From the NCBI RefSeq assembly GCF_000422285.1, contig NZ_AULM01000001.1:372001-436000 (forward strand): a stretch of 64,000 nucleotides of DNA. The letters run 5' to 3'. Shown here piece after piece: positions 43,464-61,955 of this stretch (the first letter of the stretch is position 1; the number at the start of each line of letters is the position of its first letter). The notes beneath the pieces were generated by a model. The model saw nothing but the letters and a program-made list of their open reading frames with translations. It had not been told where the DNA came from and searched no databases. This DNA comes from Desulfatiglans anilini DSM 4660. Lineage in GTDB: Bacteria; Desulfobacterota; DSM-4660; Desulfatiglandales; Desulfatiglandaceae. The position numbers were made by a program, and so were the translations under genes.

Positions 43464-43499
43464 AGCGGCCGGGACCCGGGAAACCGGGACCCGGCCGCT
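43464..43499 (+). terminator. Strong GC-rich hairpin between pstS and pstB
   Basis: The two arms AGCGGCCGGG and CCCGGCCGCT are perfect complements, and an inner stem CCCGG/CCGGG encloses a GAAA loop. Only a short T-stretch follows, so it may be an attenuator or an mRNA-stabilising end for the pstS message. Confidence 0.6.
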
Positions 43500-43614
43500 T
43501 TCGAAAAAGAAAGGATCGGGCTGCAATCAAGCACCTGCTGCACCTGCTGCTTGACTTTTTCTTATCGGATCGGACCTTGAAGAAAACCGTCAACCCTCCA
43601 GCACCGAGGCTTGC

Positions 43615-44484: not shown

Positions 44485-44670
44485 TGGACGATCGTGATCC
44501 CCGGTGAGACGCGCGCAGGACTTTGGGAGGACACTTCATGTCTACCCTTTGTTCGGTGCAGACCGTCCTCCCGGTGCCGACGCGGGTCCGGTCCAGTGAC
44601 CCGCCTAACGTGAAGGCCCCTGCAGGATGACCTTTTCGATGGCCACTGCTGTGCCATAGTGAGACAACCC

Positions 44671-45345
44671 ATGGAAAAACGACATATCGTCAAGGCATAC
44701 GACAGAGAACTCGAACTGCTGAAATCGAAGGTCCTTGAAATGGGCCAGGCCTGCGGGCGACAGCTCGCAGGCGCGATCGAGGCCTTCAAACACCGCGATA
44801 CGGATCTGGCCGGCAGGATCTTTCGAGCGGACGCGGGCATCAACGCCCTGGAAAGCGAGATCGACGCGTTCACCGTGCACTTGTTGGCCAAACGGCAGCC
44901 CATGGCCGTCGATCTGCGGCAGATCATCGGTGCGCTGAAAATCGCGGGAGATCTCGAACGGGTCGCTGACTACGCCGCCAATATCGCCCGGCACCTTTTC
45001 GAATTCAATGGCCTGAACGTCCAGGCGCCGCTTCAAACGATCTTAGAAATGGCAGAGACGGGCTTGACCATGCTGCATGATGTGCTTCGCGCCTACGCTG
45101 AGCTGGATGTCTTTCAAGCCATCGAGGTATGGCACCGGGACCAGCGCATAGACCAGGCCTACTCCGGCCTCCTCACGGAGCTTCGTGGAGTGATGTCGGA
45201 GGATCCGGAGAGTATCAAGGCCTGCACGACCCTCCTTTTTATCGCTAAATGCTGCGAGCGGATCGGCGACCACCTCATGAATGTCGCCGAAAACGTGCAC
45301 TTTATATCGGTCGGAACCCCGTACCACGGCGAGGGTCAGGGATGA
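44671..45345 (+). CDS. phoU: Phosphate signalling protein PhoU
   Basis: The 224-residue helical protein has two PhoU repeats, each with a conserved helix pair (RQIIGALKIAGDLERVADYAAN and FIAKCCERIGDHLMNVAENV, split by about 110 residues). It links PstSCAB to the PhoR-PhoB sensor. ATG 44671 is taken as the start; a GTG twelve bases upstream is possible. It is the last pst operon gene. Confidence 0.9.
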   Translation: MEKRHIVKAYDRELELLKSKVLEMGQACGRQLAGAIEAFKHRDTDLAGRIFRADAGINALESEIDAFTVHLLAKRQPMAVDLRQIIGALKIAGDLERVADYAANIARHLFEFNGLNVQAPLQTILEMAETGLTMLHDVLRAYAELDVFQAIEVWHRDQRIDQAYSGLLTELRGVMSEDPESIKACTTLLFIAKCCERIGDHLMNVAENVHFISVGTPYHGEGQG

Positions 45346-45956: not shown

Positions 45957-48900
45957 TCAAGGCATTCGAGAGGGTCGAGGCCACGTGGCCGGCAAAAGAA
46001 GACTGCAGGTTGTGACAATGGATGCGTCAAGGAGGCGGTTTGCTGCTCGACCAAAAGATGGCGTCCAACCTGGCGTCAGCACGGATGCGATCTGCATTCC
46101 CAACCCTCCCAACAGGCTCATGAACAAGAGGGGGTTCTTTTCTTTCCGATAGGAGCCTTCATGACGATCGCTGCGGCAGATCAATGCGTAAAGCGTCTGG
46201 TTGATAAGCGCGCTCTTCAGAAAAAGCCTTCCTGCCATTGCTCCCCATCCGTATCGCACCACGCCGTATGCGCCGGCCGGCAGAGCAGCGGCGCATAAAG
46301 CAGCGGCATGCCAAAGGCTCATCGAAACCTCCTGATCCGTGAGCAAATGTCCGCCGTACTCCCGGGCTGGTTGCATGGACGTAATCGGCCCGGGAGTGTC
46401 GTAGGCGAGTCCGAGGGCCAGAAGGTTGGTCGGGATGCTGGTCCAGGCCCCAACGCCTGAACGGAGTAGACCCGCTCCTGCCAGCATTTCGAGCGCGAGG
46501 TCGACCTGGCTCACCGTCATCGTGAATCGGAGGGCGTTGCGTGTGTTGTTGTAAAAGGCCCTGCCATCCAACACCGCCGTCATCACGCCTTCGAGATTGT
46601 CATCCTCCAAAACGAGATCCGCTGTTTCCTGCGCAAGCATAGAGCCTTGGCGACCCATGGCGATCCCCACATCAGCGATCTTGAGCGCCAGCACGTCGTT
46701 GACGCCGTCGCCGACCATGGCTACATGAAGGCCGGCTCTCTGGTAAGCTTGAACAATTTGGAGTTTTTGAGTGGGATTGAGCCTTGCGAAGATGTGGGTA
46801 CGTTTGACGAGGGTTTCCAGGGTCCCGGGGGGATGGCCTTCCAGATCGGCCGAATCGAGAATCCGTAAGGGCTCGTCCCCGCTCAATTGCAGTTGCTCCG
46901 CGATGTGCTGCGCTGTCAGGCTCTGGTCACCTGTAATCAAAACCGTGCGGATACCGGCTCGGTGAAGATTTTGAACCAGCCTGTGCGCCCCCTCTCTCAG
47001 CGGGTCCGAGAGCTCCGCAAAACCGGTCCAGATGAACCCTGCCCCTTCCCCGCCGGTTTCACCAGGGTCGCCACCTGTTTCAAATTGGTATGCGAAGGCC
47101 AACACACGAAGCCCGGCGGCGGCTGCGGAGGCGTTCTCGATCTCGATGCGCCGTCGCTTTTCCTCCGTCATGGGGAGGATGTGGTTGCCTTTGCGAAGAT
47201 GCCCGCATCGAGCCAAAACCTCCAGCGGACTGCCTTTGACGACGGTCAGAACGACTCCGCCATCCGCAAGATGGCTCGTTACCATCAGCGGCAGGTCCGA
47301 CACGCGCCCCGTACTGCGCAAGAGGGGATATCTCGTCCGCGCTCCCTCTATATCGACTCCGCCTTTTTCAACCATCTCGAGCAAGGCCTTTTCGGTCGAC
47401 GAGCCTTCGATCGATTGCATTCCTTCGGGTGGTTCCAGCGTTGCCTCGTTGCAGAGCGCAGCAAGGATCATGAGCCATTCCATCTCATCACCGAGGTTGG
47501 ACAATCTCTTGCCGGCTACGTCGGTGATGCCATCACGGCTGACCTTTGCAGAACCCGAAGGTGTGCGGACTTCCACAACCTTCATCCGATTGAATGTCAG
47601 AGTTCCGGTTTTGTCAAAGCAGATGACCTGGACTGCGGCCAGATTTCCCAAGGCTCGGAGCCGCCTTACCCTGATCCGGTGCTGACGCATATCTCGATGC
47701 CCGAACGAAAACGCCCCGGTTGCGATGGTCGCAAGGCTTGCGGGGAACAGCCCAGCCAGAAGCGAGAGCCCGTTGCTGACGGAAGCGAAAAACCCGTGCC
47801 CCCGTAAGAGAAGAAAGAAACAGATTACAAGGGAAGCCGAAACACTCATGGAAAGGATCCTATACCCCAGCCGTTTCAGTTCCCGCGCCACAATGGCCTC
47901 GGGGGGAAGAACCCCTCCCAGATACCCCTGCAATTTCCCGAGCTCCGTTGCGCGGCCCGTGGCGGATATGACCGCGCGTCCCCATCCTGCTACGACCAAA
48001 GTCCCCCGGTACACCATGTTGCTGCGCTCTGAGATCCGCAGCTCCTGACCGGAAAGGGCAGTTGTCTGCTTGGCCACGGGAATGCTTTCACCTGTCAAGG
48101 AGGCTTCATCCAGATAAAGATTATGCGCCTCGATCACCCTGCCATCCGCGGGAATTCGACTTCCCGGGGTCAAATCTACGACATCCCCTGGTACCACGTT
48201 CTCAAAGGGAGTCTGCAATAGGCCCCCGCTGCGCAACACGCAGGCGTTAAGCCTTATGTTCATCCGGGTTGCTTCGAGATCCCGGTCGGCCTTACGCTCG
48301 GCATAGAAACCGACCGCTGCATTGATCAACACCACAGCCAGGGCCACGAACCCTTCGATGATCCGGCCGGTGAAAATAGCGAGTGTTGCGGCCATTCCCG
48401 CCAAAGACATCGGCACCGGGGAAAATTGATCCTTCATAACACGGTACGCTGACCGCGTCGCCGCACCCGGCAGGAAATTCCCCCCGTAGATTTCGAGCTT
48501 CTTGCGGGCTGCTGCAGACGACAAGCCTTTGGAGGGGGAGGATCGGAAATGGGTCAGCGTTTCGGCAGGTGTCCGGCGATGCCATGGCTCTTCAGCCTCT
48601 CTTCGCAACAGCGGCTTTCCGCGCTGTCTTGCCTTTTCAAACTGTTTTTCGTTCCTGTGCCATACCCTCGCGGCTTCAACCGAAAAACCGCAGACCTCTT
48701 CGAACTCGCCGCAAAAAGCGGCAATACGCTCCCGGACTTCGTCGACAGACCAGCGCTCGTCGAATTGGACAAGGATATTTCCAGTCCATGCACTTGCGGA
48801 AACGTTTTTTACCGGACCACAATCCAGAAGCCTGCCTTCAAGGTAAAATCCGAGTTTCTTGCATTTTTTCAGCCCAATGACCGCTATTCGCACCCTCCCA

Positions 48901-48965
48901 GGCAGATGATGCAGCACTCTTCCTGCAGGTTTCTTATTCGCATTCGATTCACGATGTCGAGTCAA
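45957..48965 (-). CDS. P-type ATPase with N-terminal HMA2-like module and altered ion-site motifs
   Basis: The 1002-residue protein opens with an HMA2-like module (H19-H-L-PGR-V-R near residues 19-26, TGN at 61-63, no CxxC). Next come a Cation_ATPase_N-like region, TGES at 291-294, the phosphorylation motif DKTGT at 451-455 and later GDGVND. The M4 motif reads FPASLA (407-412) in place of the P2-type PEGLP. The M6 region has TSIPTNLLALGLAYD rather than the usual N-x3-D. Phosphorylation chemistry looks intact but the ion site does not, so the substrate is uncertain. The TTG start is backed by GAGGT six bases upstream. It lies in the accessory cluster with a MetK and two other ATPases. Confidence 0.85.
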   Translation of the reverse strand: MTRHRESNANKKPAGRVLHHLPGRVRIAVIGLKKCKKLGFYLEGRLLDCGPVKNVSASAWTGNILVQFDERWSVDEVRERIAAFCGEFEEVCGFSVEAARVWHRNEKQFEKARQRGKPLLRREAEEPWHRRTPAETLTHFRSSPSKGLSSAAARKKLEIYGGNFLPGAATRSAYRVMKDQFSPVPMSLAGMAATLAIFTGRIIEGFVALAVVLINAAVGFYAERKADRDLEATRMNIRLNACVLRSGGLLQTPFENVVPGDVVDLTPGSRIPADGRVIEAHNLYLDEASLTGESIPVAKQTTALSGQELRISERSNMVYRGTLVVAGWGRAVISATGRATELGKLQGYLGGVLPPEAIVARELKRLGYRILSMSVSASLVICFFLLLRGHGFFASVSNGLSLLAGLFPASLATIATGAFSFGHRDMRQHRIRVRRLRALGNLAAVQVICFDKTGTLTFNRMKVVEVRTPSGSAKVSRDGITDVAGKRLSNLGDEMEWLMILAALCNEATLEPPEGMQSIEGSSTEKALLEMVEKGGVDIEGARTRYPLLRSTGRVSDLPLMVTSHLADGGVVLTVVKGSPLEVLARCGHLRKGNHILPMTEEKRRRIEIENASAAAAGLRVLAFAYQFETGGDPGETGGEGAGFIWTGFAELSDPLREGAHRLVQNLHRAGIRTVLITGDQSLTAQHIAEQLQLSGDEPLRILDSADLEGHPPGTLETLVKRTHIFARLNPTQKLQIVQAYQRAGLHVAMVGDGVNDVLALKIADVGIAMGRQGSMLAQETADLVLEDDNLEGVMTAVLDGRAFYNNTRNALRFTMTVSQVDLALEMLAGAGLLRSGVGAWTSIPTNLLALGLAYDTPGPITSMQPAREYGGHLLTDQEVSMSLWHAAALCAAALPAGAYGVVRYGWGAMAGRLFLKSALINQTLYALICRSDRHEGSYRKEKNPLLFMSLLGGLGMQIASVLTPGWTPSFGRAANRLLDASIVTTCSLLLPATWPRPSRMP

Positions 48966-49275
48966 GGCGACCTCAGATCTTTTCTACGTTCAAGGTATCG
49001 GTGCCAATGCCACCCTTACTATTTTCCGTGGTACTCGATGAAGAATCAAGGCTTATCCTCCTTCCGATCCATAACGCTTCTCATAGGAAAGTAGGCGGGA
49101 CTTATTGGGTCCGGACGAGGGATACCCCGACCCGCCGAAGGTTCCAGGCCGGTTGCAATTCTCTGATGGACACAAGTGGGCGGAGAAAATTCTCGGATCG
49201 ATCTGACGGCTATTCCGGCCCGAAAATGAATTCAAGGCTAATCAAAATCTAATATTCAGGGTGCACGCTTCCTGC
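48966..49275. other. 310-base gap, no gene seen
   Basis: This spacer between the minus-strand ATPase gene and the plus-strand zinc-ribbon gene should hold divergent promoters. An open frame overlapping the ATPase gene runs into it but lacks coding character. I see no clear promoter, repeat or terminator. Confidence 0.4.
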
Positions 49276-49575
49276 ATGGGAAAACAGGAAAGATCGTGCC
49301 AGGCGGATATCCACTGTCCCCGATGCGGGTCAAGTGCCTTGAACCGCTACGGAAGGTCTCCTCAGGGAAAAGAGAGGTATATCTGCCTTGTCTGCAACCG
49401 GCAGTTCGTCCTCTCAACGAACCGGGGGGTGACGAATGACCGTCCGCAATGCCCGCTATGCGGAAGTCCGATGCATGTCTACATGCGGGAGCCGGGATTT
49501 GTCAGGTTCCGCTGTTCGCATTATCCTGTCTGCAGAGGTTACTATAAACGTGAGGAGGGCATTCGGGAAAAATGA
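49276..49575 (+). CDS. Small zinc-ribbon protein
   Basis: The 99-residue protein contains two zinc ribbons. The first is CPRCGSSALNRYGRSPQGKE with a later YICLVCNRQF, the layout of IS1-type InsA N-termini and similar transcription regulators. The second is CPLCGSPMHVYMREPG with CSHYPVC. No transposase or helix-turn-helix domain follows. GTG 49261 is an alternative start. It lies on the plus strand between the two minus-strand ATPase genes. A regulatory or transposon-derived origin is possible but not shown. Confidence 0.5.
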   Translation: MGKQERSCQADIHCPRCGSSALNRYGRSPQGKERYICLVCNRQFVLSTNRGVTNDRPQCPLCGSPMHVYMREPGFVRFRCSHYPVCRGYYKREEGIREK

Positions 49576-49800
49576 CTTTTTGGGCGTACTGCCGCTCGCA
49601 CATTGCGAGTCAAGGATCCGACCATCAAAAATCGAAAGGGACCGGTGCACAGGGGATTTTTCAACACGCGGCCAAGGGTGATGTTCGGCAGGCCCTTTTT
49701 CGGTCGGGTGGTAGAGAAGGCTCCAGGGCTAAAGGTCTTTCCTTTCGGACGGCATGGATCTGAACCTGCAGGAGCGTTGAGGTTTTTCCACGGACCGGCT

Positions 49801-50994
49801 TTATAGGTCCCCTTTTAAAATCTCCGCCTTGTCCGTCTTTTCCCATGGTAAATCGATATCGGTTCGGCCGAAATGGCCGTAGGCAGCAATCCGTTGATAA
49901 AATCCTTCCGGATAGGCAGTGGGCAAATGCCTCAAATTGAAGTGCCGCAAGATGCCGGCGAGCCGAAAATCGAAATTTCTCCGGACGATTTCCCCGAGGT
50001 CTTCATTTGAATATTTGCCCGTGCCAAAGGTCTCTACCTGAAGGCTTACCGGTTGAGTAATGCCGATCGAATAACTGAGTGCAACCTCACAATCCGTCGC
50101 CAGCCCGGCTGCGACAACATTCTTGGCGGCGTACCGTGCTGCATAGGCCCCGATCCGATCGATGCGCATGGGCCCCTTTCCGCTCAGGGCATTGCCGCTG
50201 TGGCGTGAAAAATTACCGTAGGTGTCAACCGCGTTCTTCCGTCCGGTCAGGCCAGAGTGATGCGAAGGGCCCCCGGTAAACACACCGTCAGGGTTGATGA
50301 ACAGCTTAGTCCTACTCGAAGGTTTGATCTCTTCATCTTCAAAGCTCGGCCCGATCACACGCTCGACGATATCATCGCGCAGCCTTTTCTGGGGTGGGGA
50401 TTCGACATCTCTCTGGCTGGCGGTCACAGCGATGCTGTGAATGCCGGAGGGCCGGCCGTTTTTGAATTCGACACCGATCTGGACCTTTCCATCCGGCATC
50501 AGGTAAGGCAGGTCCCGATTCGTCCTTGCACCGGTCAGGCTGTAAGCAAGCTTGTGAGCCAACACGATGGGGAGCGGCATCAGGACGGATGTTTGATCAC
50601 AGGCAAAACCAAACACCGTACCCTGTTCTCCCGAGGTAATGCGATCGATTTCCGCCTCGGTAAGGGCATGCTCGTCAAAGAGGGCTTTTTTTTCGGGCGG
50701 TCGGCCTTGAGGCGCTGTCAGGATGCTGCAGGTCTTGGAATTGAAATCGGGTTGGTCATAGCCGATTCGTTTGATAACCTTGCGTGCCACGTGCGGAAGA
50801 TCCACCTTGGCGCTGGTGGCGAAATGCGCCCCGATGAAAAGAATGGCGCTCGATACGGCGCACTCCGCCCTGACAAGGGCACAAGGATCCTGCATGAGGA
50901 AGTGGTCGACGATGGCGTCGCTGATCTGGTCGCAAAGTTTGTCGGGATGCCCCTCGGTCACAGATTCCGAAATGAATGTATAGTCTTTTCTCAT
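49801..50994 (-). CDS. metK: Divergent S-adenosylmethionine synthetase
   Basis: The 397-residue protein keeps the MetK fold with SVTEGHPDKLCDQISD, the PDGK segment with Lys170, LTGRK at 249-253 and VDTYG. Compared with E. coli MetK several active-site positions differ: Asp118 is Glu123, Asp238 is His246 (GGPSHHSGLTG in place of GGPMGDCGLTG) and Lys269 is Arg277. The second and third positions contact methionine in the E. coli enzyme, so the substrate or rate may differ. Its start overlaps the stop of the upstream ATPase (ATGA), which is strict translational coupling. It may be a second, dedicated copy rather than the housekeeping one. Confidence 0.8.
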   Translation of the reverse strand: MRKDYTFISESVTEGHPDKLCDQISDAIVDHFLMQDPCALVRAECAVSSAILFIGAHFATSAKVDLPHVARKVIKRIGYDQPDFNSKTCSILTAPQGRPPEKKALFDEHALTEAEIDRITSGEQGTVFGFACDQTSVLMPLPIVLAHKLAYSLTGARTNRDLPYLMPDGKVQIGVEFKNGRPSGIHSIAVTASQRDVESPPQKRLRDDIVERVIGPSFEDEEIKPSSRTKLFINPDGVFTGGPSHHSGLTGRKNAVDTYGNFSRHSGNALSGKGPMRIDRIGAYAARYAAKNVVAAGLATDCEVALSYSIGITQPVSLQVETFGTGKYSNEDLGEIVRRNFDFRLAGILRHFNLRHLPTAYPEGFYQRIAAYGHFGRTDIDLPWEKTDKAEILKGDL

Positions 50995-53900
50995 GGCTCT
51001 TCCGCCTTCTTCCGGCCTTTGGCCGTTTCATTGACAATCAACGGGATCACCGCACTGCCCCCGACAACGGCGAGATCGGCGAGTCCCAGGGTCGCCACTC
51101 CGAGGAAATTCCTCAGAGGCGGCACGAAAAGTGTCATGGCCTGCAGGAGAAGGGACCCCCCGAGTGCAATTGCAAGATAGGGGTTTGCCGGCATCTTATC
51201 TTGTCCCGGCAGGTGACTCGATTCGGAACGGCAGCTGAGGGCGTGCAGCAGTTGGCCGATGGTCAGGCTTTGAAAAGCGAGCGAGGCGGCCCGAATACCC
51301 ATGCCATATCGAAGAATTCCAAAGCCATAAGCTCCCAATGACGCTGCGCTGATCACAGCGGATTCCCGGACCATCTGTTTGAAATCGTTTCTGTCGAACA
51401 GCGGCGCCTGCGGGTCCCTGGGGGCCTGTTGCATGACATCCTGCTCGGGCGGTTCCATCGACAAGGCCAGCCCGGGAAAAATATCCGATATGACGTTGAT
51501 CCAGAGCAGTTGCATCACGCTCAGGGGAAACCCGATTCCAGCGGCTACGGCCAGGAACATCACCATGATCTCGGTCAAATTCGTAGAAAGAAAAAAATGC
51601 ACGGATTTTCGTATGTTACGATAGGTTGAACGGCCATCGGCAATGGCGATGACAAGCATCCTCAAATCATCACCCTCCAATACGACATCAGCCACCTCCC
51701 GTGCAACGTCCGTCCCGCTCTCACCCATGGCGATGCCAAGATCGGCGGCCTTCAACGCAGGCCCGTCATTGATGCCATCCCCGGTCATGGCCACCACGCG
51801 TCCGGCGCCCTGCAAGGCCTGGACGATCCGGAGCTTGTGGGCCGGGCTGACCCGGGAGTAGACATGCACCTTCCTTGACAGGGCCTGCATGAGCTTTGGA
51901 TCGATCTTGACCAGTTCGATCGAGTCGAGAATACCCAATGGACCTTCCTCATTGAGGTTCAGCTGCTCCGCGACCGCGTAGGCCGTTGCGCTTTGATCCC
52001 CGGTAATCATGATAGTCCCGATACCGGCTCGATGAAACACTCTCATCAATTGTGCCACCCCGTCCCGGATAGGATCGGCCATCCCCACGAGACCGAGCCA
52101 CACCAGACTGCCGTTTTCGGCCGGCTCCGGCGGAATACCGTCGTCATGGAGGGCATAGGCAACCCCCAGCACGCGCAACGCCTGACCGGCCATCCGTTCG
52201 TTTTCCATCTCGATCCGGCTGCGGGCGACCTCGTCCAATGGGACTATCTCTCCCCTCATGAACTGCCGGCCGCAAAGATTCAGGACCTCGGCCGGGCTTC
52301 CCTTGACCGCCAGGAGATGCCCCGCAGCCGGCTTCTTGTGGAGGGTGGTCATGTACAAGCGTTCATCCGACCGGTAGGTGATCTCGAGCAGGGCATGGTC
52401 TTGACGGAACTGGACGGGGTCAACGCCGGCAATCCAGGCTAGACGGATAAGCGCTTGCTCGGTGGGCGACCCGTTGAGTTCGAAACCGCCGGTCGACGGA
52501 TCGACGGCGATCCGGGTCTCGTTGCAGAGCGTACAGATTTCGATCAGCTTCCTGAGGGCGCTCCCTTCCTGAAAATTCACTGTGCCGGTTTCCGCAGCGG
52601 GCCCTTGTTTGCGGATATGAACTTTTTCGAAGGCTGCGTAGGTTTCGGTGACGGCGATGCGGTTGAGCGTAATAGTACCCGTTTTGTCCAGACAAAGGGT
52701 CTGGATAGCCCCTAGGGTTTCCACCGCCTGCAGATGGCGGATCAGAACGCCGTGTTTCCGCATCTTGTTGATGCCCATCGCAAAATTAATGGTTGCGGCG
52801 GCAGGCAGTCCTTCCGGCACAGCGGCTGCGGCCAGCGAGACGCCCGTCCGGAGCATCTGCAGAAATCCGTAGCCTCGCAGGAAACCGATCAAAAAGACCG
52901 CGCCGCAGATCAGCCCGCAAAGAATCACCAGTTGATCGCCCATGACGCGCAGCTGTCTCTCGATCGGTGTTTCGGGCCGCTCGGTTTCATCGAGAAGGAT
53001 CTGAAGACGGCCGATCTCGGTGTGGGCACCCGTAGCGACCACCACGGCAAGCCCCTCACCGCCTGTCACCAGCGTTCCCCTATAGGCCATGTTGAAACGC
53101 TCGGCCAAGGGGACACCCTCGAGGATAACGGCATCGGGCCGCTTCTGGACAGGCATGCTCTCACCGGTCAAGGCCGACTCGTCGATGCTCAGATGGGTGG
53201 CTCGGACAATGCGGCTGTCTGCCGGTACGTATGTTCCGGGTTTCAGAACCACGGCATCCCCGATCACGACCTCTTCGATGGGCACTTCGGCGGGCTTGCC
53301 TTCTCTCAAGACCGAAACGACCGGGTGTACGATCCGTTTGAGCGACGCGATGGTCTTCTCGGCCTTGCACTCGGTTACATATCCGATGATGGCATTGGCA
53401 ACCGTTACGCCGGCGATCACCAGAGCGTCCAGCAGGCCTCCAGTCACCAGGGCGATGCCAGCGGCACCGCCGAGCAAGGCCACCGGGAGAGAAAGAAACT
53501 GTCCGGACAGGATATCCCACCTCGAACGCGGCTGCGATTCCGGGAGGGTGTTGGGGCCGTATAATTTCAGTCGCTGCGCGGCTTGTTCGCGGGAGATCCC
53601 CTTTTCTCCGCTTTCGAGGATCGTCCATACAGCCGCTGCATCCAGTGTGTGCCAGGGTCTTGAAGGCTGCGCCTCTTCGGAGGGGAGGAATTCGCGGATT
53701 TTATCCTTCACGGAGCGAACGATCCCGGATGCGAGGCCTGCCGTTCGGGAGCGCTCTGTTTCCCTGCATTCCCCCGCGCTGCAATCCAGTGTTCTAGATG
53801 TAACCGAAACGTTCTTGCCGCGGGCGTGGCCGACGAACGCTGCCAGCAAATCGGCTGCATCCCGAAAGTCGAGATCGGCGCTGAATTGGAGCAGGATGTT

Positions 53901-54122
53901 GCCGGTTACCGAGTTGGCCGATGCCGAGAGCAGCTTTGGATGGGCGTTCAGATGGGATTCCAGGAACCGCTTCAGGGCTTCGGAACCTCTCAGTCCGTCC
54001 ACCTTGAAGCGCGCCCTCCCAGGCACCTTCGTATGCAAGGGATGGATCATGGAATCGTCCGCAGATTGGTTTGCGCCCGATGCGTCAGACAACAAACCCT
54101 TGCAATCGCCTGACGACTGCAA
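50991..54122 (-). CDS. P2-type cation ATPase with N-terminal HMA2-like module
   Basis: The 1043-residue protein has an HMA2-like module (H30-x3-PGR-A-R near residues 30-38, TGN at 73-75), a Cation_ATPase_N segment (residues 160-195), TGES at 319-322, PEGLP in M4 at 436-440, DKTGT at 479-483, GDGIND, and the M6 WINVISD. All catalytic and ion-site motifs are present, as in calcium- or sodium-type pumps. The TTG start at 54122 has a weak leader; ATG 54050 (residue 25) is an alternative, just before the HMA2 module. The stop overlaps the metK start. It follows an HMA2-transmembrane gene by 50 bases in one minus-strand operon. Confidence 0.88.
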   Translation of the reverse strand: MQSSGDCKGLLSDASGANQSADDSMIHPLHTKVPGRARFKVDGLRGSEALKRFLESHLNAHPKLLSASANSVTGNILLQFSADLDFRDAADLLAAFVGHARGKNVSVTSRTLDCSAGECRETERSRTAGLASGIVRSVKDKIREFLPSEEAQPSRPWHTLDAAAVWTILESGEKGISREQAAQRLKLYGPNTLPESQPRSRWDILSGQFLSLPVALLGGAAGIALVTGGLLDALVIAGVTVANAIIGYVTECKAEKTIASLKRIVHPVVSVLREGKPAEVPIEEVVIGDAVVLKPGTYVPADSRIVRATHLSIDESALTGESMPVQKRPDAVILEGVPLAERFNMAYRGTLVTGGEGLAVVVATGAHTEIGRLQILLDETERPETPIERQLRVMGDQLVILCGLICGAVFLIGFLRGYGFLQMLRTGVSLAAAAVPEGLPAAATINFAMGINKMRKHGVLIRHLQAVETLGAIQTLCLDKTGTITLNRIAVTETYAAFEKVHIRKQGPAAETGTVNFQEGSALRKLIEICTLCNETRIAVDPSTGGFELNGSPTEQALIRLAWIAGVDPVQFRQDHALLEITYRSDERLYMTTLHKKPAAGHLLAVKGSPAEVLNLCGRQFMRGEIVPLDEVARSRIEMENERMAGQALRVLGVAYALHDDGIPPEPAENGSLVWLGLVGMADPIRDGVAQLMRVFHRAGIGTIMITGDQSATAYAVAEQLNLNEEGPLGILDSIELVKIDPKLMQALSRKVHVYSRVSPAHKLRIVQALQGAGRVVAMTGDGINDGPALKAADLGIAMGESGTDVAREVADVVLEGDDLRMLVIAIADGRSTYRNIRKSVHFFLSTNLTEIMVMFLAVAAGIGFPLSVMQLLWINVISDIFPGLALSMEPPEQDVMQQAPRDPQAPLFDRNDFKQMVRESAVISAASLGAYGFGILRYGMGIRAASLAFQSLTIGQLLHALSCRSESSHLPGQDKMPANPYLAIALGGSLLLQAMTLFVPPLRNFLGVATLGLADLAVVGGSAVIPLIVNETAKGRKKAEEP

Positions 54123-54172
54123 GGGTTGCAGACCGTGATCCGGCCGCCGGACACGCGCTTTAGACCGCTTGA

Positions 54173-54679
54173 TTATTCATCGCCGTGCATCTTGTCGACG
54201 ATGGACTTCGAGAAGATGCCCATGGCGTACCAGAAAGCGGTGTACCAGGGGGGCGCACGCAGGTTGCCACGCAGGATCTGCACAATGCCCACGACAAGGA
54301 GGGCCATGAAAGCCAGTCCCGGAAGATCCACCTCGCCGCGCGTGAAACGCCTGACCGACCGGCTGAGGTCTCCCACGGGTTCCACCAGCCGCCGGGAGAT
54401 GGGAACGCGCCATTCAGTCGTCGAGAGGAGCTGAAAAAGCCCTGCCTCAGAAGCGATACCGCCGATCCTGTCGGCCTCCACAGTTTCACCTTTGAAAAGC
54501 AGGCTGCCAGTCAGCGGATTGACCTCCAGCGTGAGGTCTTCCGTCTTGGCGGCAAACACCTCTTTTACCCGGGCAAAATACGAATGATCCCCAGTTCTGG
54601 AGGAGACCTTGATCCGCATTCGACCGGGTGTCTTATGCGTGAGGCAGGCCTCGGGGATGGCAGACAGAAGGTCCGGCAC
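54173..54679 (-). CDS. HMA2-like domain protein with C-terminal membrane segment
   Basis: The 168-residue protein starts at GTG and carries the shared motif HKTPGRMRIKV at residues 15-25 and NPLTGSLLF around residue 57. A hydrophobic segment (LAFMALLVVGIVQIL, near residue 125) precedes the C-terminus. It has no CxxC. It lies 11 bases after the DUF5132-like gene and 50 bases before the ATPase gene, so it is likely one transcript. A partner or regulator of the ATPase is inferred. Confidence 0.65.
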   Translation of the reverse strand: MPDLLSAIPEACLTHKTPGRMRIKVSSRTGDHSYFARVKEVFAAKTEDLTLEVNPLTGSLLFKGETVEADRIGGIASEAGLFQLLSTTEWRVPISRRLVEPVGDLSRSVRRFTRGEVDLPGLAFMALLVVGIVQILRGNLRAPPWYTAFWYAMGIFSKSIVDKMHGDE

Positions 54680-54690
54680 CGGCGGCCCCG

Positions 54691-54978
54691 TTATGTCGTT
54701 GTGACGGCCTTTTTGGCCTTGGCAACCGGGGCGGCCTGTTCCCCGGCCAGCTCGGATTTGGCCTCGGCGGTCAGATCCTCGAGGGTCTCCTTGGTTTCTT
54801 CAACCATCAATTTGCCTTTTTCGTAAAGAATGATGCCGCCCTTGATGCCGGCCTTGGCCAAAGACTTCAGAACGCCACCCGCCACCGGCAGGATGATGGG
54901 CGCCAGCAGCACCGCCGCAGCACCCACAGCCAGGCCGGTCCCCCATTTCATCCCGTTTGTCAGATTACCGAGACCCAT
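54691..54978 (-). CDS. DUF5132-like small membrane protein
   Basis: The 95-residue protein has a glycine-rich hydrophobic N-terminal half (GTGLAVGAAAVLLAPIILPV, residues 14-33) and a charged tail with KLMVEETKETLEDLTAEAK. This fits DUF5132-type proteins, small membrane-associated proteins seen beside HMA-type genes. The leader GAAGGAGGTTCG before ATG 54978 is very strong. It is the first gene of the operon that continues with the HMA2 protein, the ATPase and metK. The function is unknown. Confidence 0.6.
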   Translation of the reverse strand: MGLGNLTNGMKWGTGLAVGAAAVLLAPIILPVAGGVLKSLAKAGIKGGIILYEKGKLMVEETKETLEDLTAEAKSELAGEQAAPVAKAKKAVTTT

Positions 54979-55735
54979 ATCGAACCTCCTTCTAGACGAA
55001 AACTGGTTCGCAGTGAATCACAACCCCATGCCACATGTTTTTCCTATCCAAACGCGATTAGCCGCATATAGCCCTATTCTTTAGCTTCACCCAAACGGAG
55101 TTCTATGGGCGATGTTTTCTCCGCTTGCTTCCTCCTGTCGAACCTATTTGACTCGTCGGCCGGCGGGTAGAGGGGTGTTCCATCTCAAGCTTGGGCATTC
55201 AGATCGATCCCGCCTCACATCCCGCAATACCTTTCAGAAAACTTTTTCATGGGTGGACACTAACATAACCATCGTTGCGTCGGTCAACGGGGAGGTCAAA
55301 AGTATACCGGATAAAAATAGCAACCCATTCGAGAGCTCGAAGGGCTTTCAGCGCGAGGATTGTTTGCGACCGATTGAATTCTAGTGAAAATCATATTGGA
55401 AAATTTCTAGATTGACAAGAATATAAACCATTCCATTCCCTAAAAAAATCGTCTTTAAAACCGTTCGAATTGGCGTTATGCTTCGGAGGCGGCCATCCGA
55501 AACGGATAACGCGGCAAGATACCGTTTCAACCTTGAAAAGGAGATGGTTTGATCATTGCGAGAAAATCATTTGGTTGAGTTAAGGGGCCTCTTGTTTACG
55601 TTCTGACCAACCGTATGGATTGGCGTCGGAACCGGGAAAATTGATCATCGGGGGGTGCTCGCGCGCGAAATGTCTCTCGAACGGCTCTGATCCAAAAAAG
55701 GATCGCTATTCGCAGCGGAACGGGAGGGTGTAACG
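54979..55735. other. 757-base divergent intergenic region
   Basis: This separates the minus-strand DUF5132-like gene from the plus-strand P1B-type ATPase gene and is AT-rich between 55380 and 55470. It contains a TTGACA at 55413 without a matching -10 element, and the inverted repeat at 55473-55512 (listed). I see no gene: short open frames lack coding bias. Confidence 0.5.
55473..55512 (+). promoter_or_regulatory. Inverted repeat in the long leader of the P1B-type ATPase gene
   Basis: GCGTTAT and ATAACGC enclose TTCGG/CCGAA, giving a stem of about 12 bp with an internal loop; ATCCG-AAA-CGGAT forms a competing small hairpin. It lies 224 bases before the ATPase start. It could be an operator or a structured leader element. 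Confidence 0.45.
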
Positions 55736-57931
55736 ATGAAGAAATCTGTCCGCATCGAGGTCCGCCACGCTGTCCCGGGGCGGTTGCGGCTGAAAGTGCC
55801 TTTCGTATGCAATGCCATCGGCGCCCGCGACAGGATCGAAGGGCATCTCGAGCAAGTCCCGGGTGTCCAGCGCGTACTGATCCGCTACGGGACCGGAAGT
55901 CTCATCGTCTTCTACGACAGGGCCGTCTGTACAACGTCTCGGATGTTGGATCGCATCGAGCGACACCTGTCCTCCTCTGCAGTGGCGCAGTGCCTGTCCG
56001 CAACGCGCCGGGATCCTACGCAAAAATCCTTCCACCCGTCCGCGTATGGTAAGGTCATCGGCTGGGGCCTTTTCAATGCCCTGGCGTTGACCGCCTTTAT
56101 GGGATTTTCCCTTTTACGCCGTTTCTTTACCGGCGCAGTGCCCGGCCGGGGGCCTTTCACTGTGACCGGCTTCGTCGCCGTGGGGTCCGCCTTACCGCTT
56201 TTTATCAGGAGTGTCAAAGAGGTTGTATCAACCCGCAGGATGGGCCTTTTTCCATTCCTCAGCGGCGCCTTGATCCTGGCGGTCTTTGCAGGTCAGGCCT
56301 GGACCGCTCTCGAGATCATCTGGATTCTCAGCATCGGGCTGCTTCTCGAAGAAAGCGCTGCCGAGCGCACGCGCAGGCTGATACGGGACCTTCTTCCCAT
56401 CCCTCCTGAGCGGGTTCTTGTCGTCGAAGAGGGGAGGCCGGTTGTAAAATTCCTGTCGTCGGTCCGCCAGGGAGATATCCTTAAAATAGCCTCAGACGGC
56501 GAAATCCCCGTGGACGGCATCGTTCTGGCGGGGGAGGCCATGGTGGACGAAGCTCGCATGACCGGACGCGCGCAGGCCGCATGGCGAAGAACCGGCGACT
56601 GGGTTTATGCCGGGACAGCCGTGGTGCAGGGGACCCTCTCCATCCGGGCGAAACGCCTGGCGGAGGAAACCTATCTGGCGCGCATCGGCCGACTGATCGA
56701 GGCTGCGTTGTCGGAGCCTTCTGAGACTGAGAAAAAGGCTGATGTGCTGGCTCGACGTCTGACGCGGCTGAGTTTCTGGGCGGTCGGGGCGACCCTTATC
56801 CTGACGCGCAGCCTCTCTCGCGCCTTTTCGGTCCTTCTTGTCCTGGCCTGCCCTTGCGCCACTGTTCTGGCCGCCTCGACCGCCGTCTCGGCAGCCATTG
56901 CCAATGCCGCACGGCGAGGCATCCTCGTCAAAGGCGGCGGATACCTTGAACGGGTCGCTGCGGTGACCTGCGTCTGCTTCGACAAGACCGGCACCTTGAC
57001 CATGGGTACACCGGAGGTCGTCGAGATCTTGCCACGCTGGCCGCGCCAAAAACCTGAAACGGTCCTGTTGTTGGCAGCTGGAGCGGAGCAGGGCGATACG
57101 CACCCTTTGGCCAAGGCGCTTCTCGGAAAAGCACGGGAAGAGGTGCTGACCCTGCCGGGGGTGACCTCCGTTGAAACGTCTATCGGGCGCGGAGTCCGCG
57201 CTGTAATAAAAAAGGACGTCATCCTGGTCGGTCATGCCGCATTTCTGGAGACTCAAAGTGTAGACACCGGGTTTTTCAAGAAAGAAGCCGCCTCTCGCAA
57301 GGCAGAGGGCGAAAGCGTCCTATTCGTCTCGCGCAACGGTAAGCTGCAGGGGATGATCGTGATCGACAACCGTGTAAGGGGTGAAACAGCGATGGTCCTG
57401 AGCGCACTTCGCGCGCAGGGGATTGAAAGGCTGATTCTTTTGAGCGGTGACGGAAAGGCGGTTGTCGAAAGACTGGCCGCGGCCTGTGGTTTCGACACGT
57501 TCGAAGGGGACCTCCTGCCTGAAAACAAGGCCGGTTATGTCGATACGCTTCGCGAAACCGGCGCATGCGTGATGATGGTGGGCGACGGCACGAATGACGC
57601 CCTGGCCCTTTCAAGGGCGGATGTAGGCGTGGCCGTAGGTGCGGGAGGATCGGCGCTCGCATTGGAAGCCGCGGATGTCATCCTGTTGGATGACCGGCTT
57701 GAAGGGCTGAACGACCTGAGGTCCCTGGCGAAAGACATGCTGCGGATTGCCGATCAGAATTTCTGGCTTGCCACAGCGACGAATATCCTGGGTATCCTGC
57801 TCGGCGCGGCGGGATGGCTCCCGCCTGCCGCCGCCGGTCTCCTGCACATCGGCCATTCCGCGGGGATTCTTGTCAATTCCGGCAGACTCCTTGCCGATCG
57901 ATCGTCGTCCGTGCGCGAAGAAGAGGCCTGA
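55736..57931 (+). CDS. P1B-type heavy-metal ATPase with HMA2-like N-terminus and TGR in place of TGE
   Basis: The 731-residue protein has H11-A-V-PGR-L-R (HMA2-like) and TGS near residue 53. It also has CPC at 372-374 in M6, DKTGT at 416-420, the HP dipeptide in GDTHPLAKALLG, and GDGTND. The actuator motif normally written TGE reads TGR (276-278, ACC-GGA-CGC in the DNA); the glutamate normally drives dephosphorylation. Loss of it predicts slow or blocked turnover unless another residue substitutes. The CPC identifies transition-metal pumps. GGGAGGG precedes ATG 55736. It is divergent from the operon at 49.8-55 kb. Confidence 0.85.
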   Translation: MKKSVRIEVRHAVPGRLRLKVPFVCNAIGARDRIEGHLEQVPGVQRVLIRYGTGSLIVFYDRAVCTTSRMLDRIERHLSSSAVAQCLSATRRDPTQKSFHPSAYGKVIGWGLFNALALTAFMGFSLLRRFFTGAVPGRGPFTVTGFVAVGSALPLFIRSVKEVVSTRRMGLFPFLSGALILAVFAGQAWTALEIIWILSIGLLLEESAAERTRRLIRDLLPIPPERVLVVEEGRPVVKFLSSVRQGDILKIASDGEIPVDGIVLAGEAMVDEARMTGRAQAAWRRTGDWVYAGTAVVQGTLSIRAKRLAEETYLARIGRLIEAALSEPSETEKKADVLARRLTRLSFWAVGATLILTRSLSRAFSVLLVLACPCATVLAASTAVSAAIANAARRGILVKGGGYLERVAAVTCVCFDKTGTLTMGTPEVVEILPRWPRQKPETVLLLAAGAEQGDTHPLAKALLGKAREEVLTLPGVTSVETSIGRGVRAVIKKDVILVGHAAFLETQSVDTGFFKKEAASRKAEGESVLFVSRNGKLQGMIVIDNRVRGETAMVLSALRAQGIERLILLSGDGKAVVERLAAACGFDTFEGDLLPENKAGYVDTLRETGACVMMVGDGTNDALALSRADVGVAVGAGGSALALEAADVILLDDRLEGLNDLRSLAKDMLRIADQNFWLATATNILGILLGAAGWLPPAAAGLLHIGHSAGILVNSGRLLADRSSSVREEEA

Positions 57932-58079
57932 CAGCCCCTCACTTTTCTCTGATTGATTTTATCGGAGGCCTTGAGTTATCCACCCGTTTCTGCCGGATCG
58001 ATGGGATGATGCTATCGGGTGGTTCAAAGCCGTCTGTCTACTTCGTTACGCTCATCCCGTGTGACGGCCGCCCAATGGG

Positions 58080-58272
58080 TCCCCTCCGGACATGGTCTCT
58101 TTGGCCAATCTCGTCGTCAATGTGCACGTTTGCTTATGCGGCGACCAACAGGTCGTGTCCGCGCAGCCGCTTGATTTCATTGATATTGACCAGACCGGGA
58201 ACCCGCCCCGCAGGCGAGGGACTGAGCACCCGACGGGTGCGAAGAAGAAACCTCATTTCGGGATTGGGAACC
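58080..58272 (+). repeat. MITE-like interspersed repeat, copy 5
   Basis: This copy of about 193 bp starts TCCCCTCCGGACATGGTC, continues TTTGGCCAATCTCGTCG and TGTGCACGTTTGCTTATG. It includes the module GACCAGACCGGGAACCC-(hairpin)-GGGACTGAGCACCC and ends ATTTCGGGATTGGGAAC. It has one internal module where copy 4 has two. Confidence 0.85.
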
Positions 58273-58309
58273 GGGGTCTACGGCGAAATCATCTCCGGGT
58301 GAAAACCCA

Positions 58310-58384
58310 TTGTATTTGCGCCTCATTCCAAGGTATTTCGCAAGCCTTGCATTCGGCCGTTTTTCAAGAGCCTGCGCAAAACGG
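58310..58384 (+). repeat. Second interspersed repeat family, copy B
   Basis: TTGTATTTGCGCCTCATTCC, then AAGGTATTTCGCAA, then CCTGCGCAAAACGG match copy A at 34774-34851 over most of their length. It has no visible link to the main repeat family except that it lies 38 bases downstream of copy 5. Confidence 0.6.
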
Positions 58385-58427
58385 ATTTTTCGATCGATGC
58401 ATAAGGGGGTGGACGCAAGGTTGGGGT

Positions 58428-60275
58428 TCAGGGGAGATCCAAGAGCCTCACAGCATGATAGTTTCTGAAGTTGGAATAGCCTTCACTACCCATGTACCGC
58501 TTCAGCAGTTCCGGCTTTGTCCGGAAGAGGTTAACGAGAATCAACCCGTCGAGCGTATTCCCGAAACAGCGGTCAAGATTGAAGCACAGGAGATTTCCTC
58601 CGAGTTTGAGATACTGGCGCAGGAGGACCGGCAGTCCCTTGCCGTCTGGTTCGATCTCGGCGATCCAACTCGACAGATCTTCGATATCGACCGGCCAGGT
58701 TTTGCGCCGACGATCCCCCTCGCCGTGGAGCAGCCGGGCCTTGTACTTGAAGGGGGTGCGGGGCTGGACCAATTCCGAGAGTTTGTTGGAGACGTGGCGG
58801 GTATGCAGGTAGGCTGCGATCAGGCGGCGTGAGTCGTTGCGGTAATCGCTGGTAATCGAGACCGGACCGAAGAGGGTCGTGTAATGGGGGTTGCGCACGA
58901 CAAAACGCGCGATACCTTTCCAAAGCATCAACAGGGGTGCATAGGATCGCTGATATTTTTTCTTTACGAAGGAGCGTCCCATTTCCAGGGCCGGGCCGAT
59001 CCTTTCGAAGAAATGTTCCCGGAAATGAAAAAGGGTGTTGGTATATAGGCCTTCCCGGCCGAGGCGAGGCAGAATGACATCGGTGGGTCCGATCCGGTAA
59101 GCCCCTGCCACCTCGGAGTGCTCCCGGTTCCACAGGAAGAGGTGGATGTACCAATCGTCGAATGGGTCAAGATCCAGAGCATGGCCGGTGCCTTCGCCCG
59201 CCGCTCGGAAAGTGATTTCTCGCAGACGGCCGATTTCTCTGAGTAGTTGGGGAATCTGGGCGGCCCGGGCGAAGAAGACTTCAAATTCGCCGCTGACGAG
59301 CAAAGATTGCCCCTGCGGCAAGGCTTGGACCTCAGCCGCGATGCTCGAGCCGTTTCCGGCGTTGATGATTTTGGCCGGGGGAGTGGCGTGGCGCCGCGGT
59401 GTCTTGAATCGGAAGGGGAGCATCCTTGTCGCGGGTCCCATGGATTTGCCGAGGCGGCAGGTACGGTGCCTCAGGTAGGCGGAAACATCTGCCGGTCTGC
59501 TGAATGCCGCAATCTTGTGGGGATCGATGAGGCTGCCGATTTTAACCTGAATTTCGGACGAACTTTTGTTCAGGACCTCTCGCGGCAGAAGAGCCGTACG
59601 GAGCATGGGGTGGAGAAGACCGGCCATCTGAAAGAGGTTGCTGTTTCTCCCCCTGAAGTAAACAGGAAGGACTGGAGCGGAACTGCGCTGGATAAGCCTT
59701 GAGAGCGTCTCATTCCAGGGGGGTTCCGCAACGTGACCGTGACGAAAGGAGAAATGGGCGACCTCACCGGCGGGGAAGACAGCCAGCATGCCGCCGTTCC
59801 GCAGGAGTTCCAGGGCCTGCTTGACCGGCGCCAAGTTTTTCGGTGAGGCCCGCTTTTTCTGAAAGGGGTCGGCGAGGAGAAGCAGGGGCCGCAATTCTTC
59901 GATCGCGCCGAGGATGAAGTTGGCCAGGATTTTGAAGTCGCTGCGCACCGTAGAGAGTAAGGCGGCCAGTATGATTCCGTCGACACCGCCGAAGGGGTGG
60001 TTGGCTACAACGATCACCGGGCCGCTGGAAGGAATAGCGCTGGCTGCTTTGCCGACGAGGGAATATCGCACCCCGAGCACCTGCAGGACATGGTCCAGAA
60101 ACTCTTTGACATTTTCACTGCGCGGAATGGCAGCGTAGGAGGCTTTTATGCGGTCAATGCTCAGGGCGTGCTCGAGGGAATTGCCGGCCAGGACGGCGAG
60201 TTTACTGCGGATAAGGGGCTTTTGCGGATCACTTATATGCGACGGTGAAACATTCGGTGTTTCTCGGGTTAACAT
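58428..60275 (-). CDS. OlsF-like bifunctional acyltransferase (ornithine-lipid type)
   Basis: The 615-residue protein has an N-terminal PlsC/OlsA-like domain with VIVVANHPFGGVDG (HX4D-type) near residue 95 and FPAGEVAHFS near 180. A C-terminal GNAT/OlsB-like domain runs from about residue 330 (VSGEFEVFFARAAQI, EVAGAYRIGP). This N- plus C-domain arrangement matches OlsF, which makes ornithine lipid by N- and O-acylation. A lipid synthase role is inferred; the amine acceptor is unknown. ATG 60275 is set by GAGGGAG five bases upstream, and the longer frame to 60329 has no such site. It follows the DksA/TraR-like gene by 11 bases. Confidence 0.75.
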   Translation of the reverse strand: MLTRETPNVSPSHISDPQKPLIRSKLAVLAGNSLEHALSIDRIKASYAAIPRSENVKEFLDHVLQVLGVRYSLVGKAASAIPSSGPVIVVANHPFGGVDGIILAALLSTVRSDFKILANFILGAIEELRPLLLLADPFQKKRASPKNLAPVKQALELLRNGGMLAVFPAGEVAHFSFRHGHVAEPPWNETLSRLIQRSSAPVLPVYFRGRNSNLFQMAGLLHPMLRTALLPREVLNKSSSEIQVKIGSLIDPHKIAAFSRPADVSAYLRHRTCRLGKSMGPATRMLPFRFKTPRRHATPPAKIINAGNGSSIAAEVQALPQGQSLLVSGEFEVFFARAAQIPQLLREIGRLREITFRAAGEGTGHALDLDPFDDWYIHLFLWNREHSEVAGAYRIGPTDVILPRLGREGLYTNTLFHFREHFFERIGPALEMGRSFVKKKYQRSYAPLLMLWKGIARFVVRNPHYTTLFGPVSITSDYRNDSRRLIAAYLHTRHVSNKLSELVQPRTPFKYKARLLHGEGDRRRKTWPVDIEDLSSWIAEIEPDGKGLPVLLRQYLKLGGNLLCFNLDRCFGNTLDGLILVNLFRTKPELLKRYMGSEGYSNFRNYHAVRLLDLP

Positions 60276-60286
60276 GGTCACTCCCT

Positions 60287-60661
60287 CTATTGCGAGGTCA
60301 AGCGTCTTTGTTCCATTTCGTGCTGGCATGCAACACAGAGGACGGTTTCTGGTACGGCACAGAGACGCTCTACAGGGATCATTTCACCACAGCGCTCGCA
60401 TAAGAAAAAATCATTGTCTGTCGTTGGTTTGTTGAGAACAAGATTAAGCCCACGAACGTAAGCACTTTTTTTCTCAATCAATTTATAAATTGTATTAAGA
60501 GAAATAGCATACTGTGCTTTATCACATATTTCGGAGAGACTCCCCTCTGAGTTTTCGGCATGATACTGTTTTCTCATGCTCAGAAGCTGCCTGAGATGGT
60601 CTTCAGCCTCTGATTTGAGTGCGAGAACCTGGTCGATGAATGGCCGCCTGTCGATCTGCAT
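60287..60661 (-). CDS. DksA/TraR-type zinc-finger protein
   Basis: The 124-residue protein has a coiled-coil-like N-terminus (DQVLALKSEAEDHLRQLL) and the C4 finger CERCGEMIPVERLCAVPETV then LCVACQ near residue 85-110. The family regulates RNA polymerase through its secondary channel or binds zinc in small regulators. It is the likely first gene of a two-gene operon with the OlsF-like gene, so it may control lipid synthesis. The short length matches TraR-like rather than full DksA proteins. Confidence 0.7.
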   Translation of the reverse strand: MQIDRRPFIDQVLALKSEAEDHLRQLLSMRKQYHAENSEGSLSEICDKAQYAISLNTIYKLIEKKSAYVRGLNLVLNKPTTDNDFFLCERCGEMIPVERLCAVPETVLCVACQHEMEQRRLTSQ

Positions 60662-61036
60662 TTTCCTCTACCTCGCCAAGATCTGATTTCCGCGGCATCC
60701 CGCGATAGCCCACAAGGCCTCCCGTCGGTGAATTCGGATAGCGGCCAGAGAAAGCATCCGTTATCTTGATTCCTTCCGGAAATGATTTCCCATAGAAGCC
60801 AGTTCCCATCCGGCGGTATGCATGAATAAAAAAGAAGGTGCAGCATGTAGAGATTCTTACAGGGTGAATGTTTGAAAAATCGCAGAGTCATGCAAGATTT
60901 TGATGAATGAGGATCGGTCGCGAGGAACGGGAGATGGGAAAAGCGGGCCAGTGGCGCACTTTGCTTCAAGCGCCATCCTTTGCATCTTCGCCCGGTTCAC
61001 TTTGAGCATCAAGGCGGATATTCCACATGCTGCGGG
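60662..61036. other. 375-base gap with a short repeat derivative
   Basis: The spacer holds a short derivative of the main repeat family at 60773-60813 and some AT-rich sequence around 60830-60900. No gene or clear promoter is seen. Confidence 0.45.
60773..60813. repeat. Short repeat derivative
   Basis: TTCCGGAAATGATTTCCC, then ATAGAAGCCAG and TTCCCATCCGG resemble the ends of the main repeat family joined without the middle. It matches the sequence beside copy 4 at 39138-39180. Confidence 0.55.
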
Positions 61037-61408
61037 TCAGATCAAGGCGGCGAGAAAGGAAAGACCTGCCGGTTCCAAAGCCTTTCCCACGGCCCAGCCG
61101 AACAGGGCCTTGCCTACGGCGACACCGACCTGCCCCGAGATCTGGGTTTCGGGATTGGCATGGGTGCCGATGGACCGGCTGTCAAGGAGCCTGGATCTTT
61201 CGAGACAGGCCAGGATTTCGTCGACGTGGAGTATATTTGTGCGGTATCTGATCTTCACGCTCCCCGTAACGGGGTTGATGGCGACGTGGTCGATGCCGAT
61301 CAGGCATTCGAGTTCATTAGTCAGGCGCTCGGATAAGCCGGGCTGAGCTTTGAGCATGGGGATCTTGACACGGAGTCTGCCGGGAATGCTGTGGATATAA
61401 ACCGACAT
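61037..61408 (-). CDS. HMA2-like domain protein
   Basis: The 123-residue protein has HSIPGRLRVKI at residues 6-16 and NPVTGSVKIRY near residue 52, the same motif pair as three ATPases and another small protein in this cluster. Its tail is hydrophobic and glycine-rich (VAVGKALFGWAVGKAL). No CxxC is present. AAAGGAGGG ten bases before ATG 61408 supports the start. It probably belongs with the ATPase cluster although it lies apart. Confidence 0.65.
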   Translation of the reverse strand: MSVYIHSIPGRLRVKIPMLKAQPGLSERLTNELECLIGIDHVAINPVTGSVKIRYRTNILHVDEILACLERSRLLDSRSIGTHANPETQISGQVGVAVGKALFGWAVGKALEPAGLSFLAALI

Positions 61409-61955
61409 CGTCTTTTTATTCCCTCCTTTCGCTTGCAAAAACTCCTGCATGCCGGTGGTCGGAGCATCCAGACCTCGGAAGGCCGGTTTCCCGCACGCAT
61501 ATCTGGATCTCTTTCCAACGGTGCGCCAGATGCGATTATTTTTGGATGGTTTTTCCGCTTCATCGTGAAGTTGATCTGATGTTGCGTGCCAAATAGATGC
61601 ATTTCCCTCTGCTCGTTGGTGTCTTTCAGCGCCGGTGGAATGCCGGTAAATGGGTCAGCGCAAAGGCATCTTCACTATGCCTGATAGATTGTGAGGGATC
61701 ACATCGTATATCCTGGAATGGACGGATTAGGTTTTCATTAGGCGTTTATTAGAAGTTTCCATCCGGAAATGGTCTTTTTGCCAATCTCGGCTTCAATCTG
61801 CACGTTTGCTTGTGCGGCGACCATCAGGTCGCCTCCGAAAAGGGTTGTTTTCCCGAAGTGCACATGTGTATCCGATTTCCGATGATCAACCCGCTCCGAG
61901 TCGTCTGTCGAGACGATAGTGGCGTTTTGACCGGCCCGGATCACCTGGCTATCGA
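61409..61955. other. 547-base intergenic region with a repeat
   Basis: It contains repeat copy 6 (61756-61884). The remaining sequence shows short open frames on both strands without coding character. No promoter or terminator is clear. Confidence 0.45.
61756..61884 (+). repeat. MITE-like interspersed repeat, copy 6
   Basis: This copy of about 129 bp begins TTTCCATCCGGAAATGGTC and then has TTTTTGCCAATCTCGGC, CTGCACGTTTGCTTGTG and GGCGACCATCAGGTCGCC, the palindrome with a two-base change in the middle. The right end (CCGATTTCCGATGATC) is degraded. Confidence 0.8.

Follow-up and report, generated by a model that had tools for sequence, protein, structure and literature searches.

P-type ATPases with HMA_2-type domains are known, and so are organelle operons that centre on P-type ATPases. 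PacL scaffolds are small membrane proteins clustered with the mycobacterial Ctp P-type ATPases, and CoBaHMA domains, which we take to be akin to HMA_2, have the fold of the HMA superfamily without CxxC and with conserved basic residues. Ferrosomes depend on FezA and FezB for their formation (PMC12574912). Here we describe a gene cluster of Desulfatiglans anilini DSM 4660, located at positions 45,957-61,450 of a 64,000-nucleotide stretch of contig NZ_AULM01000001.1 (the window; all coordinates refer to it), which encodes five HMA_2 (PF19991) proteins. It resembles the PacL/Ctp arrangement in combining small membrane proteins with P-type ATPases but differs in having an unrelated domain and other pumps. 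HMA_2 and CoBaHMA domains alike occur alone and on transporters, whereas here the modules repeat within one conserved operon together with DUF5132, a P2A pump and MetK. The ferrosome (fez) operon likewise pairs a P-type ATPase with small membrane proteins; in a comparison made without Fez sequences, the present system differs in its P2A core, its altered MetK, its amphipathic-repeat protein and the phosphate genes, not iron genes, that were recognised beside it. We found no description of this gene system in the literature searched, nor any mention of DUF5132, PF19991 or PF17195 in the bacterial literature searched, and it is a widely conserved, apparently undescribed bacterial gene set.

The core of the cluster lies on the reverse strand and comprises genes for a DUF5132 protein with a Gly/Pro-rich hydrophobic segment and an acidic helix (54691-54978), a 168-residue HMA_2 protein with an APPWY motif and predicted C-terminal helices that probably lie in the membrane (54173-54679), an HMA_2-bearing P2A ATPase of the Ca2+/Mn2+ type (50991-54122) and a MetK paralogue (49801-50994) whose gene overlaps that of the ATPase by 4 bp. 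The combination of DUF5132, small HMA_2 protein, HMA_2-P2A ATPase and MetK recurs in Thermodesulfobacteriota, Nitrospirota, Methylomirabilota, Planctomycetota, Pseudomonadota and some Cyanobacteriota, commonly in the order DUF5132, small HMA_2, (FAM7, described below), ATPase, MetK, which was seen in ∼20 genomes of the phylum. Two genomes of the same family (G012 and G030) carry the core, with 59-70% identity in the ATPase and MetK. DUF5132 is present in 31 of 395 genomes of the phylum, and nearly all of 20 DUF5132 loci from phylum genomes contain an HMA_2-P2A ATPase, in most cases directly followed by MetK; some of the DUF5132 loci match contigs of Desulforhabdus sp. TSK and of a Syntrophaceae metagenome-assembled genome. 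A scan of named genomes, done with a closer subset of DUF5132 sequences as the full alignment is too diverse, gave 80 loci, most of them with the core gene order. The P2A ATPase was present at 13/16 of these loci in Thermodesulfobacteriota, 29/30 in Nitrospirota, 8/9 in Pseudomonadota, 2/2 in Planctomycetota and 1/1 in Methylomirabilota, counts that are not independent because some loci are close relatives and that come from loci often on short contigs. The ATPase and MetK genes are adjacent in 36 named loci, with exactly the same 4-bp overlap in 22. The protein distance matrices also agree (Mantel r 0.93 for ATPase and MetK, 0.88 for ATPase and the 168-residue type, and 0.70 for ATPase and DUF5132, each far above 999 permutations). 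We read the gene set as a conserved, horizontally exchanged system, of which the cluster in the window is one version. A preliminary description, made from the sequence of the window, had proposed a candidate undescribed transport or envelope system on an accessory cluster, with one module repeated in ATPase and non-ATPase proteins, and had staked this on the neighbourhood being kept in other genomes. The neighbourhood is kept across several phyla, and the data support an accessory, apparently undescribed transport system with modules on both ATPases and small partners.

Several variants were observed among the relatives. Cyanobacteria mostly have another version (loci L135, L158 and L162), with HMA_2-P1B ATPases, double-HMA_2 proteins and at least two DUF5132 genes and without MetK. 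A Microvirga plasmid carries two DUF5132 genes and an HMA_2-P2A ATPase at 41% identity, and the magnetotactic Nitrospirota Magnetominusculus and Magnetomicrobium (L131, L137 and L152) carry the core system. In Candidatus Manganitrophus (L104) the HMA_2-P2A ATPase is split into open reading frames (ORFs) of 797 and 189 residues, by a frameshift or an assembly error. Another genome of the same family (G016) has a different HMA_2-rich locus (L026) with four small HMA_2 proteins, one of them fused to DUF454, and two proteins that look PilT-like.

The cluster MetK scores 375.9 bits against TIGR01034, above the equivalog cut-off of 309.4 bits, while the normal copy of the same genome scores 590. We observed the same division in 13 genomes, in each of which a single normal MetK (567-625 bits) is accompanied by the cluster type (353-397 bits); in one of them (G459, L191) a further cluster-type MetK is encoded outside the DUF5132 locus. 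The cluster MetKs are monophyletic (100/100 support), and phyla are mixed within the clade. At the position of E. coli Asp238, His is found in 56/56 cluster MetKs and Asp in 13/13 normal copies compared; Arg replaces Lys269 in 56/56, and Asp118 is mostly Asn. The residues on the ATP/Mg side (His14, Asp16, Lys17, Lys245, Lys265 and Asp271) are invariant. The equivalent of Asp238 in the human enzyme, Asp258, lies before the GRK motif; it hydrogen-bonds S-adenosylmethionine (SAM), and D258G is a deficiency mutation that impairs the enzyme (PMC3793261). Compared with MetK/MAT (methionine adenosyltransferase), the cluster copy is alike in fold and in its ATP/Mg-side residues but forms a separate clade with Asp238 changed to His, Lys269 to Arg and Asp118 mostly to Asn. 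From these substitutions and the conserved ATP/Mg residues, the methionine/SAM side of the pocket has probably been rebuilt and the ATP side kept.

The P2A ATPase has the features of a Ca2+-type pump, namely DKTGT, TGES and GDGxND, PEGL in M4, N/E in M5 and N/D in M6. With the exception of the second P2-type ATPase of the window, all aligned HMA_2-P2A ATPases keep PEGL, the N..E of M5 and the N..[ST]D of M6, as well as DKTGT, TGE, GDGxND and the GR-x-R of the module. The nearest solved structures are the human Ca/Mn pump ATP2C1 (SPCA1) and Listeria LMCA1, which share the catalytic motifs and PEGL, N..E and N..[ST]D with the cluster ATPase but have neither its extra N-terminal HMA_2 extension of ∼100 residues nor its close coupling to a MetK gene. 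Judged by these residues, the pump would move Ca2+ or Mn2+. The second HMA_2-bearing P2-type ATPase ("P2B", 45957-48965, reverse strand) retains the catalytic motifs but has PASL for PEGL in M4 and S/D in M5 and has lost the Asp of M6, so that the ion site of the Ca type is not preserved; this ATPase probably carries another substrate or has a regulatory role. The named loci yielded no close relative of it. The third ATPase (55736-57931, forward strand) also bears HMA_2 and belongs to the P1B type, with 456.9 bits against TIGR01525 (cut-off 346.25 bits) and a CPC motif in M4.

The five HMA_2 proteins are completed by a 137-residue protein with a conserved hydrophobic C-terminus (...LSFLAALI; 61037-61450, reverse strand). 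As the preliminary description had noticed, all five share a module near the N-terminus. The module is small and basic; its H-x(2,3)-PGR-x-R lies at residue 11-30 and is followed after 42 or 43 residues by TGN or TGS, and none of the five modules contains CxxC, the metal site of the classical HMA domain (PF00403). The motif by itself is weakly specific (0.6 ORFs per shuffled window, and two other ORFs of the window match). Against the curated Pfam cut-off of 30 bits, three of the five proteins score above it (45.8 bits for the 137-residue protein, 39.7 for the P1B ATPase and 33.6 for the 168-residue protein), and the two large ATPases score below it (24.0 and 19.1 bits, E 4e-5 and 1e-3). In the 4.67-Mb genome a profile search gave five HMA_2 matches at E≤0.001, all of them in the cluster, and a weak sixth elsewhere (E 0.04); the cluster proteins are the only convincing HMA_2 proteins of the genome. 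Pairwise identity among the modules is 17-36%. In an AlphaFold model of the 168-residue protein, residues 10-78 adopt an HMA-like ferredoxin fold with a predicted local distance difference test (pLDDT) score of 95-98. The model matches copper-chaperone domains with Z 6-8 and a root-mean-square deviation of 1.7-2.8, and unrelated ferredoxin-like folds match nearly equally well; with Z-scores under 8, this is the common ferredoxin-like arrangement and does not point to a precise relative. The invariant feature of the module is the pair of basic residues in GR-x-R. Such a pair accords with binding to an anionic partner (lipid or phosphate) no less well than with self-pairing.

In many relatives a further protein family of ∼230 residues, which we call FAM7, is encoded between the genes of the 168-residue protein and the ATPase. 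Its hydrophobicity has a period of 3.67 residues per turn and autocorrelates at 11, 22 and 33, and this 11-mer periodicity fits an amphipathic-helix protein of lipid surfaces. One member has a sub-threshold match to the Senescence domain. A model of FAM7 shows short helices strung together (mean pLDDT 72), and in a fold search with it only designed helical repeats stood out.

The cluster directly adjoins a phosphate uptake operon, pstC-pstA-pstS-pstB-phoU (39605-45345, forward strand). Among the 66 non-cyanobacterial loci, PstS lies near 12 and PhoU near 11, where genome copy numbers lead one to expect 0.5 for each; the genes are often 200-2000 bp from the cluster, and the association is found in three phyla. 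PhoH (7 loci) and OlsF (5 loci) are likewise above expectation. In the window, the cluster and pst-phoU are part of an island that starts just after tRNA-Cys (34472-34547) and runs from 34602 to the end of the window at 64000 and on to ∼65,997. This island of 31.4 kb is absent from a sister genome of the same genus (G001, 95-96% identity), in which ∼190 bp take its place and tRNA-Cys runs straight to the gene after the island. Besides the whole cluster and pst-phoU, the island holds an OlsF-like gene and genes for a glycosyltransferase, a phosphatidylserine decarboxylase and an alkaline phosphatase (63426-65009, partly beyond the window). The pst-phoU neighbours, together with the phosphate and lipid genes of the island, suggest that the system works in the context of phosphate limitation and of lipid remodelling.

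The remaining neighbours differ in how regularly they accompany the cluster. The gene for a small zinc-ribbon (InsA/Top1-like) protein (49261-49575, forward strand) is a recurrent partner that occurs in 20 of 88 unique loci, mostly adjoining the gene of an HMA_2 protein of 123-137 residues; the preliminary description had passed over both this gene and pst-phoU. That description had listed MetK, DUF5132, OlsF-like and DksA/TraR-like proteins as nearby, and family profiles match all four, but as parts of the system only MetK and DUF5132 belong to the core. The OlsF-like bifunctional acyltransferase, an ornithine or other aminolipid synthase (58428-60329, reverse strand), has both the acyltransferase and GNAT domains, scores 384 bits against NF052615, below the equivalog cut-off of 620, and is an occasional partner (6/88 unique loci). 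For the gene of the DksA/TraR-type zinc-finger protein (60287-60661, reverse strand) we found no clear recurrence in the surveyed loci. A protein with a PHP-like N-terminus joined to a GT4 glycosyltransferase, possibly a glycolipid synthase, is encoded at 34877-37303 and near the cluster in 8/88 unique loci (among them L029, L076, L080, L081, L082, L087 and L095). A dispersed intergenic repeat of ∼200-280 bp (39137-39412, 37317-37514, 58080-58307 and 61755-61854) is found dozens of times, at 70-94% identity, in the sister genome G001 and has no Rfam match in the window stretch.

We tentatively favour, at somewhat less than even confidence, a lipid-anchored P2A platform that transports Ca2+ or Mn2+ as part of a membrane or storage process linked to phosphate. 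At its core would stand the P2A pump (50991-54122), made together with the MetK-like enzyme (49801-50994). By binding to anionic lipid, or to some other anionic partner, the DUF5132, 168-residue and 137-residue proteins and the basic HMA_2 modules would keep the pumps together in a single membrane domain, and FAM7, in the relatives that have it, would coat that membrane. The altered MetK would perform ATP-linked chemistry in step with the pump, and Ca2+ or Mn2+ would move across the domain in the physiology of phosphate limitation, for cation and phosphate storage or for lipid remodelling. A storage compartment is possible. H+-pyrophosphatase is the marker of bacterial acidocalcisomes. These organelles, or volutin granules (PMC3198990), share the theme of calcium and phosphate with the present system, but their marker does not appear to track the cluster: H+-pyrophosphatase is encoded in the D. 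anilini genome and in the sister without the cluster and is absent from two of nine cluster-bearing genomes checked, and so does not seem linked to the cluster. This weighs against the platform, as do several other points. FAM7 is absent from the scanned D. anilini genome; phosphate genes lie near a minority of loci, mostly in Nitrospirota, and the binomial test of these neighbours ignores the relatedness of the loci; no Pho box above chance was found in the window; lipid binding by HMA_2 is suggested by basic residues; and no experimental work on any member was found in the literature searched.

A plasma-membrane metal-efflux platform, in which small scaffolds would cluster pumps for different metals against metal stress with neither a storage compartment nor a phosphate link, would explain why a P2A, an altered P2 and a CPC-bearing P1B ATPase share one module with small membrane proteins, and a patchy distribution, with the genes on an island, fits a resistance trait. 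We nevertheless regard it as rather unlikely, since the conserved core is one P2A pump with MetK and not multiple metal pumps, and since no metal-responsive regulator was recognised in the recurrent neighbour families, where phosphate genes recur instead. The co-inheritance of the ATPase with the 168-residue protein (and the fold and motif common to both kinds of protein) could also mean that the HMA_2 modules of the small proteins bind those of the ATPases to assemble or gate the pumps, a pairing of the kind that the preliminary description had suggested. Such pairing seems unlikely, as the modules have diverged so far in sequence, their strictly conserved residues are basic and do not suggest like-to-like contact, and MetK and DUF5132, which lack HMA_2, co-inherit about as well.

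Clusters that look fez-like do hold HMA_2 proteins, low-complexity YtxH-like proteins and P1B ATPases of the HMA_2 or a related kind (a Vibrio plasmid, L039, and a Cereibacter plasmid, L038, where they lie beside FeoA and TonB receptors), as would be expected if the system were a variant ferrosome, that is, an iron-storage organelle operon whose importer is the P1B ATPase and whose membrane components are the small proteins. The core pump is of the P2A type and not P1B, however, M4 of the window's P1B ATPase reads CPC, against SCA or ACP in the fez-like enzymes, and no iron gene was recognised among those ORFs of the island that were scanned against family libraries, which makes a ferrosome improbable. 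That unrelated accessory genes gathered on the island by chance might be argued from the 31-kb insertion missing from the sister genome, but this has practically no likelihood left: gene order and overlaps are kept in several phyla and the distance matrices match, so that conservation already refutes it. Calcium-carbonate biomineralisation, a lead from calcyanin and CoBaHMA, was not adopted; cyanobacterial and magnetotactic relatives exist, but the transporters named in the literature consulted are other ones.

The lipid-anchored P2A platform may be carried one step further, to an undescribed membrane compartment or pump platform, spread horizontally across several phyla, in which a MetK with a rebuilt pocket, acting in concert with a lipid-anchored Ca2+/Mn2+ pump, would store or mobilise cations and phosphate; we offer this as a speculation that is unlikely to hold in full. 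The analysis joins HMA_2, DUF5132, an amphipathic-repeat family, P2A ATPases and a side branch of MetK into one testable system, and it raises the question of why a MetK with a changed SAM pocket is translationally coupled to a cation pump. The core system is found in Nitrosovibrio, Nitrosomonas and Desulforhabdus, and its presence in these named organisms makes it open to testing.

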